Below, one piece after another: positions 1 to 5,735 of a stretch of DNA of 5,735 bases. Below the pieces are notes generated by a model. It was not told where the DNA came from and made no database searches. It was given only the letters and a program-made list of their open reading frames with translations. The DNA is from Bacteroidota bacterium (GTDB taxonomy: Bacteria > Bacteroidota > Bacteroidia > B-17B0 > B-17BO), in NCBI GenBank assembly GCA_025356715.1, contig JANXRU010000115.1:1-5735 (forward strand), read 5' to 3'. The position numbers were made by a program, and so were the translations under genes. The number at the start of each line of letters is the position of its first letter. Within the stretch, counting starts at the first letter, position 1.

Positions 1-102
1 ATAGAAAAAAGAGTAGATTTATGAAACGAAGAAGAACTAAAAAACTAAGCAAAGTTGGTGAAAATTGCAAGATTTGCTTTAAAAAACTAAGGCTATAAGT
101 AA

Positions 103-111
103 GTTGGGCGT
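103..111 (+). repeat. Left boundary box of unit 1 (attC R'-like, GTTGGGCGT)
   Basis: GTTGGGC fits the integron R' consensus GTTRRRY. The nine bases 103-111 are the exact reverse complement of ACGCCCAAC at 2415-2423, at the far end of the four-gene unit. The rest of the element this box would belong to is not convincing. A possible right-arm remnant (CTAAGGCT, 87-94) precedes it, but I find no matching left arm in positions 1-86, so the left half is degenerate or lies outside the window. The assignment rests on the match with 2415-2423 and on the same arrangement being repeated in the next unit. Confidence 0.6.
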
Positions 112-135
112 CATTCTACCGAAACCGTAGAAAAC

Positions 136-498
136 CTAACATTCACCATTTAAGACATCTTTTTTATACTCACTTATTAATCGTTTCATTTCTTTCAAAT
201 CCTTTATTTTTTTGTCAAGCGTAACCAGTTTTTCATCCAGAAAAGTCAATTTTTCATCTTTTGACAATTTATTGCTGTACCAAGCATCAATCAATTGAGC
301 AATTTCACTAATTGTATATCCTATCGCTTTAGCATCACGAATTAATTCCAATTTTGCAACTGTTTCTTCATCGTAATGAAAATAGTTATTTGACTTTATG
401 TTTTCATCACGAACACCTTTTATCAACCCCGATTTTTCATAAAATCGAATTGTGTGTGCAGTAATACCAGTTCGTTTCGACAATTCATTTATCAGCAT
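136..498 (-). CDS. MerR-family transcriptional regulator
   Basis: This 120-residue protein has the compact MerR layout. An N-terminal winged helix-turn-helix (about residues 2-70) includes ELSKRTGITAHTIRFYEKSGLI, split here as ELSKRTGITAHT (5-16) then IRFYEKSGLI (17-26). A second helical pair follows (KAIGYTISEIAQLI, 57-70), and then a charged dimerisation coiled coil (about 82-116). There is no separate effector domain; the only cysteine is the last residue, so a Cys-cluster metal sensor is unlikely. The wing is longer than usual and reads NNYFHY (37-42) where the family normally has GYRxY. The start is the ATG at 498-496. The gene is divergent from the dehydrogenase operon, and a perfect palindrome lies between them. 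By family knowledge it would bind there and control both directions. The effector is not inferable. Confidence 0.9.
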   Translation of the reverse strand: MLINELSKRTGITAHTIRFYEKSGLIKGVRDENIKSNNYFHYDEETVAKLELIRDAKAIGYTISEIAQLIDAWYSNKLSKDEKLTFLDEKLVTLDKKIKDLKEMKRLISEYKKDVLNGEC

Positions 499-515
499 TT
501 CCTATGTTTTTTTGG

Positions 516-546
516 CAAAGATAAATTATTTTTAAAATAATTGCAA
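516..546 (-). promoter_or_regulatory. Promoter of the merR gene
   Basis: On the minus strand, TTG (546-544) is followed after exactly 20 nt by TATCTTTG (523-516), a full match to the Bacteroidota -7 consensus TAnnTTTG. The ATG lies 17 nt downstream of the box. The -33 element touches the edge of the palindrome at 546-560, so a bound regulator would be expected to affect its own transcription. The assignment is from consensus matching only. Confidence 0.65.
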
Positions 547-569
547 GTATAGACTATACTCTAATGTTG
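541..569 (+). promoter_or_regulatory. Operator-containing promoter of the dehydrogenase operon (P1)
   Basis: TTG at 541-543 and TAATGTTG at 562-569 are separated by 18 nt, with one mismatch to TAnnTTTG. The palindrome sits entirely within the spacer, the position where MerR-type regulators distort DNA to activate. It competes as a candidate with P2 just downstream; the sequence alone does not say which is used. Confidence 0.45.
546..560. promoter_or_regulatory. Likely MerR operator, perfect 15-bp palindrome
   Basis: AGTATAG-A-CTATACT is a perfect dyad with 7-bp arms around one central base. It is the only strong palindrome in the divergent intergenic region. MerR-family proteins bind dyads of this size, usually in the spacer of the promoter they activate. 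Here it fills the spacer between TTG (541-543) and the box at 562-569 on the plus strand, and it abuts the -33 element of the merR promoter. That placement is what makes the operator reading persuasive. No binding data are implied. Confidence 0.75.
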
Positions 570-597
570 TAGGTTTGGAAATATTGATTTAGATTTG
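567..597 (+). promoter_or_regulatory. Second candidate promoter of the dehydrogenase operon (P2)
   Basis: TTG at 567-569, a 20-nt spacer and TAGATTTG at 590-597 give an exact match to the Bacteroidota consensus. Transcription would begin near 603-604, upstream of the ATG at 622. This argues against the TTG codon at 595 as the true start, since it would fall inside the -7 box. The operator would then lie just upstream of the -33 element rather than in the spacer. Confidence 0.55.
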
Positions 598-621
598 CAG
601 AAATTTAAAAATAAATTCAAA

Positions 622-1413
622 ATGACAAAGACGATTTTAATTACAGGAGCAGGTCACGGATTTGCAAAAACAACTGCTTTTATTTTAGCAGAAAAAGGGC
701 ATAATGTTATTGCAACAGCAGAAATTTGGCCACAAGTAACAGAACTTAAAGCTGAAGCAAAAGCGAAAAAGCTTACCAATTTGACAATAGAAAAACTAGA
801 TGTAACCAAACAGAGAGAAAGAAAATATTTAATTGAAAAGTACGACATTGATGTTTTATTCAGCAATGCAGGACTTATGGAAGCAGGACCAATTGGCGAA
901 CAACCACTTGATTTAATCCGCTCTATGTTTGATATTAATGTGTTTTCAGCTTTAGAATTTGCACAAGGATTTATCAAAAAAATGGTTGCTAAAAAATCAG
1001 GCAAAATTGTATTCACTTCTTCAATGGGTGGTTTGCTAACTGTTCCTTACGCATCGGCTTATTGTGCTACAAAACACGCCTTGGAAGCTATTGCAGAAGG
1101 ATTAAAAGTGGAATTAGAACCTTTCAATATTAAAATTGCTACGGTAAATCCAGGTGCTTTTGACACAGGTTTTAATGACAGAGGAATGGACAGCATCAGA
1201 CATTGGTACAATCCAAAAACGAACTTTACATCTGAAACCATTTTTGCAGGATTTGAAGAAATGTTATCACAACAATTTGACCCACAAATGATGGTTGATG
1301 TAATTGTTGATGTAATTCTTTCAGACAATCCAAACTTCAGAAACGTTTGTCCACAACCTGTTGAAGATTATATTAAACAACTTCAAGAAAATGCTTGGAC
1401 TTTAAAGAGTTAA
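622..1413 (+). CDS. SDR-family NAD(P)-dependent oxidoreductase
   Basis: This is a classical short-chain dehydrogenase/reductase of 263 residues from the ATG at 622, a usual length for the family. Visible landmarks are the nucleotide-binding loop TGAGHGFA (8-15), LDV (59-61), SNAG (81-84, usual NNAG), and the catalytic tetrad N106, S134, Y147 and K151 (YCATK, 147-151). NPG (176-178) follows the active site. The third glycine of the usual TGxxxGxG loop is alanine (A15). The family catalyses reversible alcohol/carbonyl redox with NAD(H) or NADP(H); the substrate cannot be told. An in-frame TTG at 595 would add nine residues, but it overlaps a promoter box and precedes the SDR fold, so the ATG is preferred. 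It is first in a three-gene operon divergent from the MerR gene. Confidence 0.92.
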   Translation: MTKTILITGAGHGFAKTTAFILAEKGHNVIATAEIWPQVTELKAEAKAKKLTNLTIEKLDVTKQRERKYLIEKYDIDVLFSNAGLMEAGPIGEQPLDLIRSMFDINVFSALEFAQGFIKKMVAKKSGKIVFTSSMGGLLTVPYASAYCATKHALEAIAEGLKVELEPFNIKIATVNPGAFDTGFNDRGMDSIRHWYNPKTNFTSETIFAGFEEMLSQQFDPQMMVDVIVDVILSDNPNFRNVCPQPVEDYIKQLQENAWTLKS

Positions 1414-1417
1414 GAAA

Positions 1418-1930
1418 ATGGAAGCAATAAAAAATTATTTTAATGCTGAAAAAGCTGAAAGCCTATTATTCATAGGCTTCGGCATTTTTACACTCGTACT
1501 ATCTATATATTTTTTCTTTTTCATAAAAGATGGCTTTTGGAAAGGTTTAGCTATTCCATTAATCTTTTTTTCATTGGTACAAATTGTTATTGGAACAACA
1601 ATCTTTACAAGAAGTCCTAAGGACGATTTAAAAGTAGAAAACATTTTAAAATATGAACCACAAAAAATTCAATTAGAAGAAATTCCAAGAATGGAAAAAG
1701 TGATGAAAAACTTTGTTTACTATCGCTATTTTGAAATTGGAATGATGGTTTTAGGACTCGTTCTTATGTTTTCTTTATCCAATTATGGCTTTTGGAAAGG
1801 CTTTGGTTTAGGTCTTTTTATTCAATGTGCTGTTTTACTTTCATTAGACTTTTTCGCTGAAAAAAGAGGGCATTTTTACATCGAACATTTAAAAACAATC
1901 AATCAAAAAATTCAGAGTAATGACAAATAA
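1418..1930 (+). CDS. Four-helix integral membrane protein with an internal duplication
   Basis: This is a 170-residue protein of no family I recognise. Four hydrophobic segments are visible, at about 16-36, 44-63, 105-121 and 127-145. They form two hairpins, and each hairpin carries the same turn motif GFWKG (39-43 and 124-128). The hairpins are joined by a charged linker (about 65-100, with KDDLKVENILKYEPQKIQLE), and a basic tail follows (about 148-170). This suggests an internal duplication of a two-helix unit. No signal peptide, heme or metal motif is evident. The gene starts 4 nt after the dehydrogenase stop and overlaps the next gene by 11 nt, so the three are almost certainly co-transcribed and translationally coupled. 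A role in membrane stress or export can be imagined from context but not shown. Confidence 0.85.
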   Translation: MEAIKNYFNAEKAESLLFIGFGIFTLVLSIYFFFFIKDGFWKGLAIPLIFFSLVQIVIGTTIFTRSPKDDLKVENILKYEPQKIQLEEIPRMEKVMKNFVYYRYFEIGMMVLGLVLMFSLSNYGFWKGFGLGLFIQCAVLLSLDFFAEKRGHFYIEHLKTINQKIQSNDK

Positions 1931-2387
1931 TAAAATCACAAAACACTCAACATTTAAAAGAAGTGTTCATACAGAAATACTAATAAACGCACCAATAGAA
2001 AAAGTTTGGCGTGAACTAACTAACTTCAAAGAAATGCCAACTTGGAGTAAATCGTTACAAAAAATTGAAGGCGATTTTAGAAAAAATGGACAAACAGAAG
2101 TTCATTTTATGGCCAACAAAGGTAAAGTTGGTATTTATAAACACGAACTTATACACTTTGAAGAAGGAAAATTATTTGGTTGGAGCGACCCATTTATTTT
2201 AGGTATAACAGACAACCACAAATATCAATTGGAAAAAGTATCCGAAAATCAAACGAAACTTATTCAATCAGACGAAGCAAATGGATTTGCAACAATATTT
2301 ATGGGCAATTTCATTATGAACTTTTTCTTAAAAAGCTATACGGAATTTAATCAGACATTGAAGAGCCGAATAGAAAATAATAGTTAA
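1920..2387 (+). CDS. SRPBCC-fold (START/polyketide cyclase-like) protein
   Basis: This 155-residue soluble protein resembles the SRPBCC superfamily. The first strand and helix give TEILINAPIEKVWRELTNF (18-36), followed by MPTWSKS (39-45). Central strands include GQTEVHFMANKGKVGIY (57-73) and LFGWSD (85-90). HKYQLEKV (100-107) and QTKLIQSDEANG (111-122) are typical of the last strands before the long C-terminal helix (about 124-152). Members enclose a hydrophobic cavity for small ligands; many act as cyclases, lipid carriers or stress-response proteins. No catalytic set is recognisable. The ATG at 1920 overlaps the preceding gene by 11 nt in another frame. It is the last gene of the operon and ends 28 nt before the hairpin element at 2415. 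Confidence 0.8.
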   Translation: MTNNKITKHSTFKRSVHTEILINAPIEKVWRELTNFKEMPTWSKSLQKIEGDFRKNGQTEVHFMANKGKVGIYKHELIHFEEGKLFGWSDPFILGITDNHKYQLEKVSENQTKLIQSDEANGFATIFMGNFIMNFFLKSYTEFNQTLKSRIENNS

Positions 2388-2414
2388 GTAAAAATAGCGG
2401 AAGAAAAAGAACGA

Positions 2415-2550
2415 ACGCCCAACAAGGGTTTTGCAAAATTGGGGCAGAAGTGCTAAATTTGAGCATTGGAATTCTAATGAACATTTGTGCTAAATTGAAC
2501 ATTTGTGCCTTGAATGCCCCAACTTCGCAAAGCCCCAATCCGTTAGCAGT
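2415..2550 (+). repeat. attC-like hairpin element 1 (junction of units 1 and 2)
   Basis: This 136-bp imperfect inverted repeat has a left box ACGCCCAAC (2415-2423; GCCCAAC fits RYYYAAC). The outer stem is GGGTTTTGC (2426-2434) with GCAAAGCCC (2527-2535), paired except for one T:G wobble at 2429/2532. The inner stem is TTGGGGCA (2439-2446) with TGCCCCAA (2515-2522), perfect over 8 bp. A 68-nt centre follows, and the right box is GTTAGCAGT (2542-2550). The two outer boxes do not pair with each other beyond AAC/GTT. Instead the left box pairs with 103-111 and the right box with 3634-3642. By integron logic the exchange point would be between G2542 and T2543. It could also act as a 3' mRNA hairpin. 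Confidence 0.72.
2450..2508 (+). repeat. Direct repeats in the centre of element 1
   Basis: GTGCTAAATT occurs at 2450-2459 and again at 2487-2496. GAACATTTGTGC occurs at 2479-2490 and again at 2497-2508, the two copies separated by six bases. The repeats make this hairpin's centre longer than that of element 2 (68 nt against 31 nt between the inner stems). They look like a local tandem expansion of the variable part. Confidence 0.7.
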
Positions 2551-2557
2551 AAGTTTG
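2550..2557 (+). promoter_or_regulatory. Candidate -7 box immediately inside unit 2
   Basis: TAAGTTTG matches TAnnTTTG exactly and begins on the last base of the right box of element 1, 28 nt before the ATG of the thioredoxin-like gene. No TTG lies at the expected distance upstream; the nearest similar triplet is TTC at 2524-2526. It would therefore be a weak or half promoter whose -33 region would come from the previous unit. Confidence 0.35.
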
Positions 2558-2585
2558 CGGACACACTTCGGAAACAAACCTTTAC

Positions 2586-3587
2586 ATGAAGAAATTGAAC
2601 TTACTTAACATATTTTGTTTCTTGACAGTTGTGTCTTACGGACAATTGACAATTCACCAAGTAGGACTAAAAAATAATCTGTATCCCGACCTTGTTATAG
2701 CAGAATACGCAGACAGTACTTACAAAAAAATCAATGACTCGACCATTGTTTTTAATTGTAATCCAAAAGACAACGAATGCCTTTTCATCTTAATTGACCA
2801 GCAGACAAGGTGGTTTTCACGAATTTGGTTAAAACCAAACTATAAGAAAAAAGAACTAATAATTGACTACTCAAAAAGGACAGCAAAAATAAAATTCCCA
2901 GACGAATGGGATGAAGTGACCGAAATGGTAATCACGCTAGGACAAAAAGGAAACCAAAACGCAGAGGACAGCGTTTCATTTGCATACCTACAAAAACATA
3001 CCGACTCTTATTTGTCGCTTTGGTTTCTTTCTCATGGCTTATATATTGATTATCCAAGTAAAAAAATGAATGCATTAAAAATATTAAGTCCATCTCTAAA
3101 AAATTATCCCGAATACAAACAAACTCTGGCAAGTTTAACACAAAGAAAAATTCCAAACGTAGGCGACACGTTTGAAGAATTTGAACTCGCTGATAAAAAT
3201 GAAATCGTTTTTAAATCATCTACAATTAAAAATAAATGGATACTAATTAATTTATGGTCGAACAGTTGCGGTCCTTGCGTAAGAGAAATGGACGCATTAG
3301 TTAATTTCTACAAATCTGTTGACACTTCAAAAGCAGAGTTTATTTCGGTTGGCTTAGACGACAAAAAAGAGAACTGGAAAACTGCGAAAGCGACAAACAA
3401 AATAATCTGGCCATCGGTTTGGCAACAAGGTGGCGTTTATGGCGACTTATGTTTAAATTACAATCTTATGGCAATGCCCTTTTTCGTTCTCTTTGACAAC
3501 AATAAAACAATATTTTACATTAAAGACGGAGCCAATGAGCTTGACAATATTAAAATCACTTTTAAGGAAAAAAACTTATTTAAGTAA
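2586..3587 (+). CDS. Exported thioredoxin-like (TlpA/ResA-type) protein
   Basis: This is a 333-residue protein with an N-terminal signal peptide (KK at 2-3, hydrophobic 5-17, probable cleavage near SYG-Q at 19/20) and no lipobox. Residues about 21-185 are an uncharacterised N-terminal region with a close cysteine pair (C58, C65). The C-terminal thioredoxin-like domain (about 188-333) starts with VGDTFEEFEL (192-201), typical of Redoxin/AhpC-TSA domains. It has the active site NSCGPC (226-231; C228 and C231) and the expected proline AMPF (296-299; P298). CGPC points to dithiol/disulfide exchange on exported proteins. The organisation, a long N-terminal region plus a TlpA domain, is common in Bacteroidota periplasmic proteins. 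It is the only gene between elements 1 and 2. Aspartate codons are strongly GAC-biased (18 of 21), unlike the dehydrogenase (6 of 13). Confidence 0.87.
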   Translation: MKKLNLLNIFCFLTVVSYGQLTIHQVGLKNNLYPDLVIAEYADSTYKKINDSTIVFNCNPKDNECLFILIDQQTRWFSRIWLKPNYKKKELIIDYSKRTAKIKFPDEWDEVTEMVITLGQKGNQNAEDSVSFAYLQKHTDSYLSLWFLSHGLYIDYPSKKMNALKILSPSLKNYPEYKQTLASLTQRKIPNVGDTFEEFELADKNEIVFKSSTIKNKWILINLWSNSCGPCVREMDALVNFYKSVDTSKAEFISVGLDDKKENWKTAKATNKIIWPSVWQQGGVYGDLCLNYNLMAMPFFVLFDNNKTIFYIKDGANELDNIKITFKEKNLFK

Positions 3588-3633
3588 AACATGCAGACAC
3601 TTAAGCAAAACGTAAACTGTGTACGCAAACCGA

Positions 3634-3732
3634 ACTGCTAACACAGGTCTTGCTCCATTTTTTGCGTGTTAACGCTCAAATGCATAACTTGGACAAGCAA
3701 AAAACGGCGCAAGGCCTGAAAACGTTAGCAGG
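3634..3732 (+). repeat. attC-like hairpin element 2 (junction of units 2 and 3)
   Basis: This 99-bp imperfect hairpin has left box ACTGCTAAC (3634-3642). The outer stem is CAGGTCTTGC (3644-3653) with GCAAGGCCTG (3709-3718), paired except for one T:G wobble at 3648/3714. The inner stem is TTTTTTGC (3658-3665) with GCAAAAAA (3697-3704), plus CC/GG further out. The loop is 31 nt and the right box is GTTAGCAGG (3724-3732). The left box is the exact 9-bp reverse complement of 2542-2550, the start of unit 2. Left and right boxes also pair with each other over 8 bp because units 2 and 3 happen to share TTAGCAG. Spacings match element 1 exactly: 11 nt from AAC through TTGC, and 15 nt from GCAA to GTT. 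Confidence 0.72.
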
Positions 3733-3750
3733 ACATAAAAACAGACAATT

Positions 3751-5340
3751 ATGACGACGAGACAATTTATTGCAATTTTTATCCTCTTAGTAGGACGATT
3801 GCTTTCACAGCCTCTTCCGCAATGGACTTCAAGTATTGGTTCCAACTTACCTTACTATTTCGCCGACGAACCTAAAATAAAAATTGACAACGCAGGCGAC
3901 CTTGTAGTTTGCGGTAATATTATGACCGGCAGTAACGGAATGAATATGCTCCTTATAAAATACACAACATTAGGAAGTCTAATTTGGCTAAAAACATATA
4001 ATGGAATTAATAATAAAGACGACCAATTGTTTGACTTCGTGTTCGACAGTCAAAATAATATTTATGTTACTGGAAAAACGACAATTGGTACAAATAATTC
4101 AGACGTGATTTCAATCAAATTTGACTCGGGCGGAAATTTTATTTGGCAAAATACTTTCAATGGCTATTGTAATAGAAACGACGAAGGACAATCAATAACA
4201 ATTGACAACACTAATAATACATACATCATTGGAACTACTGAGCTCGATACAAGCGGATGGAGCAGAAAATTGTTCTTAAGAAAAATTGATCCAAGTGGCA
4301 CAACCCTTTGGTCAAAGCGGTACGGCAACGATAGTTCAGCACGATGTAGTGGATTACAGATAAAATATTTAAACAATGAGGTTCGAACCATTGGATATCA
4401 AACATTACCAAATAGATATATCGTAATGAATATAAATCCCAATGGAACATACATATTTACAAACGAAGCTCCTTTTATTAAAGGAATGTCGTCTACTTTT
4501 ATTGACAAGTTCGGTAATTTTTATTGGGGCGCTATGGGGGCATATAAAACAACAAAAATAAATTCAACAGGGACACTTGCCTGGATTGACTCGGTTGGAA
4601 CAAATTTGCCCCCAAACACAACAGGCGACGAAGTTCGGGCTATTGTCGTTGATACCTTACAAAATGTGTATGTTACAGGTAGGCATTACGGTGCAACAAA
4701 TACAAACGCTGATGTTTTAACTGTTAAATATTCCCTGAGTGGTTCTATTCAATGGAGCAAACGATACGAATACTTAAGCAATAACTCTGCCGACATCGGA
4801 AATTCCATTTGTCTGGACAGCCTATTAAATGTTTTTGTTGCGGGTGAAAGTCAAAAGACAACTCTCAGTAACTATGATTATGTTGTTATCAAATACACTA
4901 ATAGCGGTAATCAAGTCGGCATTATTAGGTATGACGATCCGTTTTCAACTGATGATGCAATTACTTCTTTACTCGTCGATAAATTCGGTTGTATTTACGT
5001 TACTGGTCTAACAATGGATAATCTTTCAACTTCTAATACAACTTCACAAAAATATTGTTCTATGTCAACAGACATAAACGAATATTCGTCTGGTGTCATT
5101 AAAGTTAATGCATTTCCAAACCCTTTTACAAATGAGACAACAATAAGCTTGCCTAACGACAACGCAAATGTTTTCAATCTAAAATTGTTTAATACAACTG
5201 GACAGGTTATTTATGAGCAAATTTACTCTGAGACAACAATGCTAAAAATTAATCTACCATATTTAAGCAACGGCCTTTACCACTTTGTTATTAAAAGTGC
5301 AGACAGACAATATCATGGTAAATTAGTAAAGCTCGACTAA
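3751..5340 (+). CDS. Secreted beta-propeller protein with T9SS sorting domain
   Basis: This 529-residue protein has a signal peptide (hydrophobic about 6-18, cleavage near residue 20). Residues about 40-436 contain some eight degenerate SBBP-type repeats of the form D-x-x-x-N-x-Y-V-x-G, then IKY, then a W strand. The repeats start near 46, 99, 152, 207, 252, 301, 356 and 410; clear copies are NNIYVTG (102-108) and QNVYVTG (304-310). The last repeat lacks its W strand, which QWTSSIG (24-30) could supply, closing a ring of eight blades (inference). Residues about 447-529 are a type A T9SS C-terminal domain: NAFPNPF (453-459), GQVIYEQ (484-490), LSNGLYHFVI (505-514) and the basic end GKLVKLD. 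The protein should be exported by the Por system and be cell-surface or extracellular. No catalytic motif is visible. It is the sole gene of unit 3. Confidence 0.9.
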   Translation: MTTRQFIAIFILLVGRLLSQPLPQWTSSIGSNLPYYFADEPKIKIDNAGDLVVCGNIMTGSNGMNMLLIKYTTLGSLIWLKTYNGINNKDDQLFDFVFDSQNNIYVTGKTTIGTNNSDVISIKFDSGGNFIWQNTFNGYCNRNDEGQSITIDNTNNTYIIGTTELDTSGWSRKLFLRKIDPSGTTLWSKRYGNDSSARCSGLQIKYLNNEVRTIGYQTLPNRYIVMNINPNGTYIFTNEAPFIKGMSSTFIDKFGNFYWGAMGAYKTTKINSTGTLAWIDSVGTNLPPNTTGDEVRAIVVDTLQNVYVTGRHYGATNTNADVLTVKYSLSGSIQWSKRYEYLSNNSADIGNSICLDSLLNVFVAGESQKTTLSNYDYVVIKYTNSGNQVGIIRYDDPFSTDDAITSLLVDKFGCIYVTGLTMDNLSTSNTTSQKYCSMSTDINEYSSGVIKVNAFPNPFTNETTISLPNDNANVFNLKLFNTTGQVIYEQIYSETTMLKINLPYLSNGLYHFVIKSADRQYHGKLVKLD

Positions 5341-5348
5341 ATTACTGG

Positions 5349-5371
5349 TGCTAAACAGCAAAAACTTATGC
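5349..5371 (+). repeat. Possible damaged right-end box of unit 3
   Basis: Unit 3 begins GTTAGCAGG, so an intact cassette-like end should read CCTGCTAAC. Just after the propeller gene, TGCTAAAC (5349-5356) differs from TGCTAAC by one inserted A. No matching hairpin arm follows it within about 90 nt. It may be a decayed left box, or chance in AT-rich sequence. Confidence 0.25.
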
Positions 5372-5374
5372 GGG

Positions 5375-5448
5375 CGAAAACAAAGCATTTGCAAATTTCA
5401 AGGTCGCTGCGCGAAAATTATTTTCATTTTGCAAATGTCCAAATGTAA
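5375..5448 (+). repeat. attC-like hairpin element 3, degenerate outer boxes
   Basis: The stem CATTTGCAAA (5386-5395) with TTTGCAAATG (5428-5437) is perfect over 10 bp around a 32-nt centre that itself contains the palindrome GAAAAT-T-ATTTTC (5413-5425). The left spacing is preserved: AAC (5379-5381) is followed by 11 nt ending in TTGC (5382-5392), as in elements 1 and 2. On the right, GCAA starts at 5431, and 14 nt later comes GTAAAC (5445-5450) instead of GTT at 15. The outer boxes CGAAAAC and GTAAACT match neither each other nor the unit 3 start, so this copy seems eroded. It lies between two convergent genes and could also end transcription from both sides. Confidence 0.5.
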
Positions 5449-5456
5449 ACTATCAT

Positions 5457-5735
5457 TTATCTCTCAAATTGATAATGGCTATAATCTAATAAAACTGTTT
5501 TCAAAAAAGTTTCATTATCAAGTGTAGTTGAAACAGCCATTTTAGTTTTTACTTTTTGAGCTAATAATGTCAAATTATCCCGTTTATCATTTGTAATACT
5601 GTGGTCTAAAATTTCTTTCACTATCGCAATATCTTTATCGGTTAACACGGCAACTTGATCAAATATAATTTTATAATTTGAAACCTGTTTGTACAAAATC
5701 GTATCCCTTAATGTCACTTTTGATCCAAGCTTAAT
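5457..5735 (-). CDS. Hypothetical protein, 3' part only
   Basis: The last 92 codons of a minus-strand gene are visible. The frame is open from the window edge to the TAA at 5459-5457. A GTG at 5717-5715 could be read as a start giving 86 residues, but the frame continues upstream without a stop, so the gene most likely begins beyond the window. The visible part is soluble-looking and helix-rich, with many lysines and aspartates. Segments include FDQVAVLTDKDIAIVKEILD and LLAQKVKTKMAVSTT, and it ends HYQFER. I do not recognise a family, and no membrane segment or catalytic motif is seen. It is convergent with the propeller gene, with element 3 between them. Confidence 0.65.
   Translation of the reverse strand: MKLGSKVTLRDTILYKQVSNYKIIFDQVAVLTDKDIAIVKEILDHSITNDKRDNLTLLAQKVKTKMAVSTTLDNETFLKTVLLDYSHYQFER

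Follow-up and report, generated by a model that had tools for sequence, protein, structure and literature searches.

The DNA analysed here, a 5,735-nucleotide (nt) stretch of a Bacteroidota contig (JANXRU010000115.1; hereafter, the window), is most probably the beginning of a cassette array that belongs, in Bacteroidota, to an integron-like system with its own dedicated tyrosine recombinase, a reading to which we assign, from sequence comparisons, a probability of about 0.9. Among the gene-capture platforms of bacteria, integrons are the best known; they are characterised by IntI, an integrase whose additional helix recognises attC sites in folded, single-stranded form. The observations behind our reading are the correspondence between short boxes at the two ends of each unit, hairpins with covarying arms, arrays in which all sites share one orientation, the presence of integrase, attI and array together in relatives of the window, and a unit that occurs in two different orders. 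As in integrons, the cassettes lie in one orientation, have their boundaries at GTT and are interchangeable in order.

In the mechanism that we propose, each unit would be a mobile cassette ended by an attC-like hairpin of about 100–136 nt, and a dedicated tyrosine recombinase, encoded just upstream of the array or divergently from it, would join cassettes either to an attI site beside its own gene or to other hairpins. The strand exchange would take place inside the GTT triplet and would leave a remnant of the R′ box at the 5′ end of the unit, where it pairs with the unit's own R″ box. The precise cleavage point within the triplet is not readable from the sequence, since GTT is common to all sites. 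The recombinase presumably catalyses this reaction, the folded bottom strand would be its substrate, and the window's own integrase gene would be located just left of base 1.

The correspondence between unit ends had been noticed in a preliminary description of the window, and re-checking the coordinates confirmed that it is exact. Unit 1 (103–2423, plus strand), which extends from the GTT remnant to R″, begins with GTTGGGCGT (103–111) and ends with ACGCCCAAC (2415–2423), and unit 2 (2542–3642, plus strand) begins with GTTAGCAGT (2542–2550) and ends with ACTGCTAAC (3634–3642). Such boxes alone prove little, as the window contains seven 9-mers that begin with GTT and have an exact reverse complement 0.2–4 kb downstream, including both unit pairs; it is their tie to the hairpins that counts.

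The rule is general and extends beyond the window. A strict pattern derived from the window hairpins matched 70 viral contigs, and a blastn search of the whole window against plasmids gave four Bacteroidota records, all of them matching the region of the first hairpin (E1) only. Most searches were carried out with R1, a covariance model built from 23 sequences, which produced 206 matches in 74 sequences (the window, the 70 viral contigs and three plasmid stretches); its matches in the window are not independent, because both window hairpins are part of the model. For the analysis of unit ends, 202 of these matches were used, leaving out two that were truncated by a contig end and two that were opposite to the array strand. 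In record L013, for instance, R1 detects arrays of more than ten hairpin sites, all in one orientation. Clean AAC/GTT ends were found in 123 of 125 units, and in 79 of these 123 all six variable end positions match, the six bases that follow GTT being exactly complementary to those preceding the next AAC. The mean agreement is 5.11 of 6, against 3.11 (standard deviation 0.09; highest of 2000 shuffles, 3.44) when the unit ends are shuffled, these counts being not fully independent, as some viral contigs are near-copies. Between the R″ and R′ boxes of one hairpin, the mean is 3.02 of 6. In array regions derived from genomes, 57 of 86 units are exact, with a mean of 5.03 and a shuffled mean of 3.00.

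The hairpins themselves were recovered by a second covariance model, R2, which was built from 124 sites in other genomes and contains no window sequence; a model-based search for further sites had been suggested with the preliminary description. E1 (2415–2550, plus strand) scores 120.9 bits (E 3.4e-23) and the second hairpin, E2 (3634–3732, plus strand), scores 32.0 bits (E 1.6e-5), and R2 gave no third plus-strand site in the window. In E1, the boxes are R″ ACGCCCAAC, L″ GGGTTTTGC, L′ GCAAAGCCC and R′ GTTAGCAGT, the last being part of unit 2; in E2, they are R″ ACTGCTAAC, L″ AGGTCTTGC, L′ GCAAGGCCT and R′ GTTAGCAGG, the last being part of unit 3. The predicted DNA folds have energies of −17.2 (top strand) and −19.6 (bottom strand) kcal/mol for E1 and of −21.7 and −25.6 kcal/mol, respectively, for E2.

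Comparison of 231 distinct arm pairs revealed the R″-L″-L′-R′ plan with imperfect pairing. The L arms pair at a constant offset of 4, with a left spacer of 1 nt and a right spacer of 5 nt; for left positions 3–6 and 8–11, mutual information is highest at the paired column, and a T-G mispair is present at one L position in 47% of the pairs. Among the 209 of these hairpins that are no longer than 170 nt, the bottom strand is the more stable one in 179, according to predicted folds. This build fits the single-strand use of sites known from integrons, although it is no proof of it. The integron R box consensus is RYYYAAC / GTTRRRY, and 21 and 13 of the 231 hairpins, respectively, fit its two halves. 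A search against Rfam gave no family at its gathering score, the only hits being two microRNA models far below theirs.

That a unit has changed its position is seen for unit 1. Among 296 genomes sampled from the phylum, a single one (G260) encodes a protein 95% identical to the Polyketide_cyc2-type protein of this unit, and blastn of the window against its record L280 gives a single alignment, of 103–2534 to 7059–9491, with 92.6% identity. Its first aligned base is 103, precisely the G of GTT, and to the left of this point the sequences differ, being attI-like in the window and the right arm of a hairpin in L280. The nine bases of the end boxes are identical in both. Unit 1 is the first cassette of the array in the window and the second in G260, where L280 also carries an array-linked integrase. 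The preliminary description had proposed that the blocks moved as integron-type cassettes, and had named reordering with junctions at GTT as the sign to look for. For unit 1, this is what G260 displays; for unit 2, the case consists of the box pair and the two hairpins, and its mobility finds no support from relatives, since the searches gave no closely related gene (among the 296 genomes, nothing exceeds 37% identity and the best matches have 25–33%). Searches of the viral contigs likewise found no relatives of the unit 2 protein or of the Polyketide_cyc2-type protein of unit 1. Additionally, in six pairs of units from different records, the alignment ends within 12–14 nt of both unit ends.

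The enzyme was sought in genomes related to these arrays. Scanning genome contigs with a pattern that was too strict gave one locus, in Algoriella xinjiangensis (G001), which served as the starting point for the genome searches. This genome has 16 hairpins, and one of its nine tyrosine recombinases adjoins a hairpin, in divergent orientation. Its family, which we take to be the Weeksellaceae of NCBI, was sampled with 120 genomes, in addition to the 296 of the phylum sample; the P values for co-occurrence given below ignore kinship. Using a cut-off of at least 230 bits, which we set ourselves (the next lower match has 203.5 bits), 71 homologs of the integrase were found in the 120 family genomes. 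Hairpins are located within 6 kb in 42 of these 71 loci, 36 times upstream on the opposite strand, four times downstream on the same strand, twice downstream on the opposite strand and never upstream on the same strand. Among Xer-like controls, the same is true of one in 13, and this one clusters with a group of 316-residue recombinases in the tree described below. Of the 49 best-scoring loci of the phylum sample, 40 were analysed; hairpins accompany 25 of these 40, in 23 cases on the same strand and downstream, which constitutes a second layout. The integrase occurs in 46 of 78 hairpin genomes and in 48 of 218 others in the phylum (P 6e-9), and in 56 of 73 and nine of 47, respectively, in the family (P 5e-10). 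Judging from these associations, a dedicated recombinase is the likely partner of the arrays. On plasmids, NCBI names for it vary, including “site-specific tyrosine recombinase/integron integrase” and “site-specific integrase”.

Two other recombinases were encountered near hairpins. A 378-residue enzyme close to a G001 hairpin (L088), with Arm-DNA-bind_5 and SAM_5 domains, was considered and discarded as an integrase of the type found in phages or integrative and conjugative elements, because in the loci retrieved the distribution of its homologs did not follow that of the arrays. The multicopy 316-residue recombinase lies 149 or 155 nt from an opposite-strand hairpin in five of 16 loci (L236, L239, L245, L250 and L251), and it may be an element that targets hairpins. 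Three plasmids (L273–L275) carry a relative of it paired with an IS91-family transposase, in one case between tet(X2), catB and aadS.

In relatives, an attI beside the integrase is the point where cassettes begin. At each locus, the nine bases with which the first cassette should open can be predicted from the R″ box of the first hairpin. Such a start is present in the interval between the integrase and the first hairpin in 31 of 36 divergent loci, at a distance of 112–231 nt from the integrase in 23 cases, and in 22 of 23 co-directional loci, where in 15 cases it lies 70–252 nt behind the integrase. When boxes of other loci were used as a control, they were found in 0–9% and 0–19% of cases, respectively. 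The longer distances would fit loci where the model overlooked the first hairpin. The bases before the attI GTT are conserved, often being CGTATATTTGAGT in the divergent layout and CATATAAACAA-like in the co-directional one, in many cases with a preceding inverted repeat. Plasmids L272 and L275, from Chryseobacterium, have the integrase and an attI of the second layout, with a hairpin detected in L272 only; plasmids of this type could be mobile versions of the system.

The left end of the window array, at base 103, is likely, although not certainly, an attI-like site of this kind and not a hairpin. The putative site (47–105, plus strand) consists of the inverted repeat AAGCAAA (47–53)/TTTGCTT (73–79), followed by GGCTATAAGTAA and the insertion point GTT (103–105). 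With an attI profile for the second layout, trained on 15 relatives and excluding the window, GTT 103 obtained a score of 4.1, the best of the window's 253 GTT sites and one reached by 0.26% of 17,493 background GTT sites. A perfect 7-nt inverted repeat at the expected place is present in the window, in 14 of 32 relatives and in 178 of 6000 background sites (3.0%). We had at first assumed that GTT 103 represented insertion into a secondary site, an assumption that the profile comparison led us to revise. Additionally, a TAG triplet at 2–4 (plus strand), whose frame extends beyond the window, may be the stop codon of an upstream integrase gene; it is separated from GTT 103 by 98 nt, and a spacing mostly of 92–110 nt separates the end of the integrase match from the attI GTT in co-directional relatives. 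The window probably begins just behind such a gene. An open frame at 3–97 (plus strand), with no start in view, overlaps the proposed attI and is probably non-coding.

Several results weigh against this reading of the window and its enzyme. No integrase is present within the window, and its attI scores poorly for a member of this class (4.1, where most relatives have 10–20 and known sites range from −6.8 to 20.1). No hairpin lies within 6 kb in 29 of the 71 family integrase loci, ten of which have less than 1.5 kb of contig upstream. Conversely, 17 of the 73 family hairpin genomes have no integrase, in G008 at least 20 hairpins were counted but the integrase search gave no match, and 31 of the 78 phylum hairpin genomes have neither this integrase nor IntI (ten have IntI and nine have both enzymes). 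Some of the sampled genomes may also be metagenome bins. The modest attI score and the open frame across 3–97 would agree with an array that lacks an integrase of its own, either left over or placed in a secondary site, in which the resemblance of 1–102 to attI is due to chance. We consider this unlikely, given that 103 is the best of 253 GTT sites and comes with both the inverted repeat and the expected spacing, but it is the alternative that deserves most attention.

The remaining alternatives concern the nature of the system. An ordinary integron, where the cassettes are moved by a canonical IntI encoded elsewhere in the genome, the other recombinase being uninvolved, would account for an array logic that is the same as that of integrons; IntI exceeds the curated cut-off in 84 of the 296 phylum genomes, and weak R1/R2 matches occur near two of 20 IntI loci (L342 and L345). 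Nevertheless, at E ≤0.05 only one of these 20 loci has a hairpin match nearby, the IntI model TIGR02249 finds nothing over its cut-off in the 120 family genomes although 73 of them have hairpins, hairpin genomes of the phylum tend to avoid IntI (10 of 78 against 74 of 218; P 2.5e-4, ignoring kinship), and the attI sites adjoin the other recombinase. This explanation is consequently quite improbable. Even less should be expected from the host XerC/XerD recombinases acting on the hairpins, as they do for phages that use host Xer: the Xer proteins are relatives of the array recombinase, but their loci are not linked to arrays (the one in 13 noted above is not Xer in the tree), and this idea would offer no explanation for why a conserved attI accompanies a dedicated recombinase. 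Finally, hairpins that fold and sit 3′ of genes could be simple repeats, such as transcription terminators or repetitive extragenic palindromic (REP)-like sequences, their box matches arising by chance or through selection on the RNA. The correspondence across whole units far above shuffles, the swapping of units at boxes, the invariant GTT/AAC and the Rfam result all speak against this idea, which the relocation of unit 1 in G260 already contradicts and which we regard as hardly tenable. The cassette array with a dedicated recombinase is thus the reading that we retain.

Sequence features indicate that the array recombinase family is not IntI. Its members lack the IntI insertion of about 42 residues (21 residues face 64 in IntI4, structure 2a3v), and the two catalytic motifs are separated by 58–59 residues in array enzymes (61 measured of 66), by 100 in IntI (eight measured of 20) and by 64–66 in the others measured. 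Against the IntI model, the array recombinase scores 188 bits, split over two segments, where the cut-off is 265, and many array recombinases carry some 80 additional residues at the N-terminus. In a tree of 30 of the 66 integrases, 12 Xer-like proteins, eight of the 16 proteins of the 316-residue group and 14 of the 20 IntI, IntI forms one group (support 100/100) and the array integrases another (88/89), with warnings for long branches; integrases with stops were left out of the tree and of the motif distances. The best solved structural match of the modelled recombinase (predicted local distance difference test, pLDDT, 85; predicted template modelling score, pTM, 0.57) is IntI4 (2a3v), and the next best solved relatives by sequence are XerA and XerD. 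The preliminary description had recommended a search for an IntI-like partner with an added domain; the tyrosine recombinase found in relatives lacks the added I2 domain. As the hairpins go with a different recombinase family, a search for IntI only would miss this partner, and tools that require IntI would overlook such arrays. The preliminary description knew of no well-characterised integron arrays in the phylum, and we too had expected IntI to be rare in it; with 84 of the 296 sampled genomes passing the curated IntI model, Bacteroidota are not poor in integrons. This number is far above what RefSeq-based surveys suggest, as far as the part of the survey considered here goes (PMC9024848). 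In G119, a protein of 335 residues (C1:2142041-2142922) aligns end to end with the IntI model but, at 147.5 bits, stays below the cut-off of 265.

Unit 1 contains a MerR-family regulator (136–498, minus strand; Pfam MerR_1, E 2.5e-17), whose gene runs opposite to the other cassette genes, a short-chain dehydrogenase (595–1413, plus strand; adh_short, E 6.8e-40), a small protein of hydrophobic appearance (1418–1930, plus strand), for which Pfam gives only a sub-threshold DUF6992 match (17.6 bits against 27), and the Polyketide_cyc2-type protein (1920–2387, plus strand; E 2.6e-10) that recurs in G260. Unit 2 codes for a protein similar to thioredoxin/AhpC-TSA (2586–3587, plus strand; Thioredoxin_8, E 6.9e-11). 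The start of unit 3 (3724–5340, plus strand) includes an open reading frame (ORF) at 3751–5340 for a beta-propeller protein (SBBP, E 1.5e-18) with a Por_Secre_tail domain (E 1.7e-9). The third hairpin, which would mark the end of unit 3, was not found in the window by either R1 or R2; behind this unit, there is an ORF without match at 5457–5717 (minus strand), and 5340–5456 is also without a detectable hairpin.

Should the system be a second, separately evolved integron, a reading discussed below, it would be both a native source and a vehicle of resistance cassettes, among them tet(X) and lnu(H). Empedobacter plasmids carry lnu(H), tet(X2) and mph(G)/mef(C) in units with exact end boxes (9/9), the resistance units being located at L071 9082–10020, L071 15137–16344 and L072 7579–10003. 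An array of G017 contains the tet(X2) unit in identical form (100%; L222 4802–6137), with the match ending at the boxes. Of the 389 plasmid records that match, 50 are from Acinetobacter. On a plasmid of Acinetobacter indicus (L271 6052–6717), a recombinase gene beside tet(X3) matches residues 121–356 of the array integrase with 47% identity, and a weak partial hairpin lies behind tet(X3) (R2, 26.6 bits, E 0.008; R1, E 0.41).

A related process may have been described in Riemerella. According to the portion of the report that concerns us here, aph(3′)-IVb, when flanked by 27 bp on its 5′ side and 140 bp on its 3′ side, is inserted into the genome of R. anatipestifer ATCC 11845 independently of homology, the target being a locus with relE, hthR and cdf as markers; the 3′ flank has an attC-like fold, and in that portion the authors recognised no mobile element and name no recombinase (PMC13148043). 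Homology-free integration in this species covers aph(3′)-IVb, lnu(H) and blaRATA (PMC13148043). In G053, which encodes the array integrase and is, judging from its gene order, presumably R. anatipestifer or a close species, a hairpin (L132 2869–3005) lies within a hairpin array between a RelE-type/helix-turn-helix (HTH) pair and a CDF transporter gene. The published event was presumably a cassette insertion at this hairpin, and such hairpins probably explain the homology-free integration of cassettes in Riemerella (PMC13148043).

At a more general level, IntI-family membership fails for the linked enzyme, and we may perhaps be dealing with a second origin of the same principle. We lean, with some reserve, towards a second, separately evolved integron in Bacteroidota, in which a tyrosine recombinase without I2 would recombine folded single-stranded hairpins. 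An enzyme without I2 is of interest because, in the part of the literature on which we rely, integron integrases are considered to have gained single-strand recombination via the I2 helix (PMC7790495); if our proposal is true, this gain would not be the sole route to the single-strand recombination of cassettes. Two questions become testable: how homology-free integration proceeds in Riemerella (PMC13148043), and whether single-strand cassette recombination has arisen more than once. No description of this system of integrase, attI and hairpins was found in the open-licence literature of PubMed Central, a scope that takes in neither preprints nor subscription papers.

Among known systems, IntI integrons (class 1, those of Vibrio and other chromosomal ones) share with these arrays an integrase, an adjacent attI, cassettes of one orientation with attC hairpins, R″/R′ remnants split at GTT and a bottom strand of lower energy. 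By contrast, the enzyme linked to the Bacteroidota arrays lacks the IntI insertion, often has an extra N-terminus and falls in a separate clade, the R boxes rarely follow the integron consensus and, outside the sampled family, the integrase mostly has the same direction as the array. Taken alone, the window would count as a cluster of attC sites lacking an integrase (CALIN), in the sense given in the part of PMC9024848 used here; it differs in having an attI-like left end, and its relatives are complete. XerA and XerD are relatives in sequence, but Xer loci are not linked to arrays. The integration observed in Riemerella shares with our system a gene with an attC-like fold in about 140 bp of 3′ sequence, a fixed locus and, at the corresponding place in G053, a hairpin of the present type; array and enzyme alike are proposals of this analysis, compared with what we have used of PMC13148043. 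Archaeal integrons, judging from the portion of PMC9668308 considered, likewise display the full logic of integrons outside the classical hosts, although they carry an IntI with the additional domain, unlike the enzyme that accompanies the Bacteroidota arrays.

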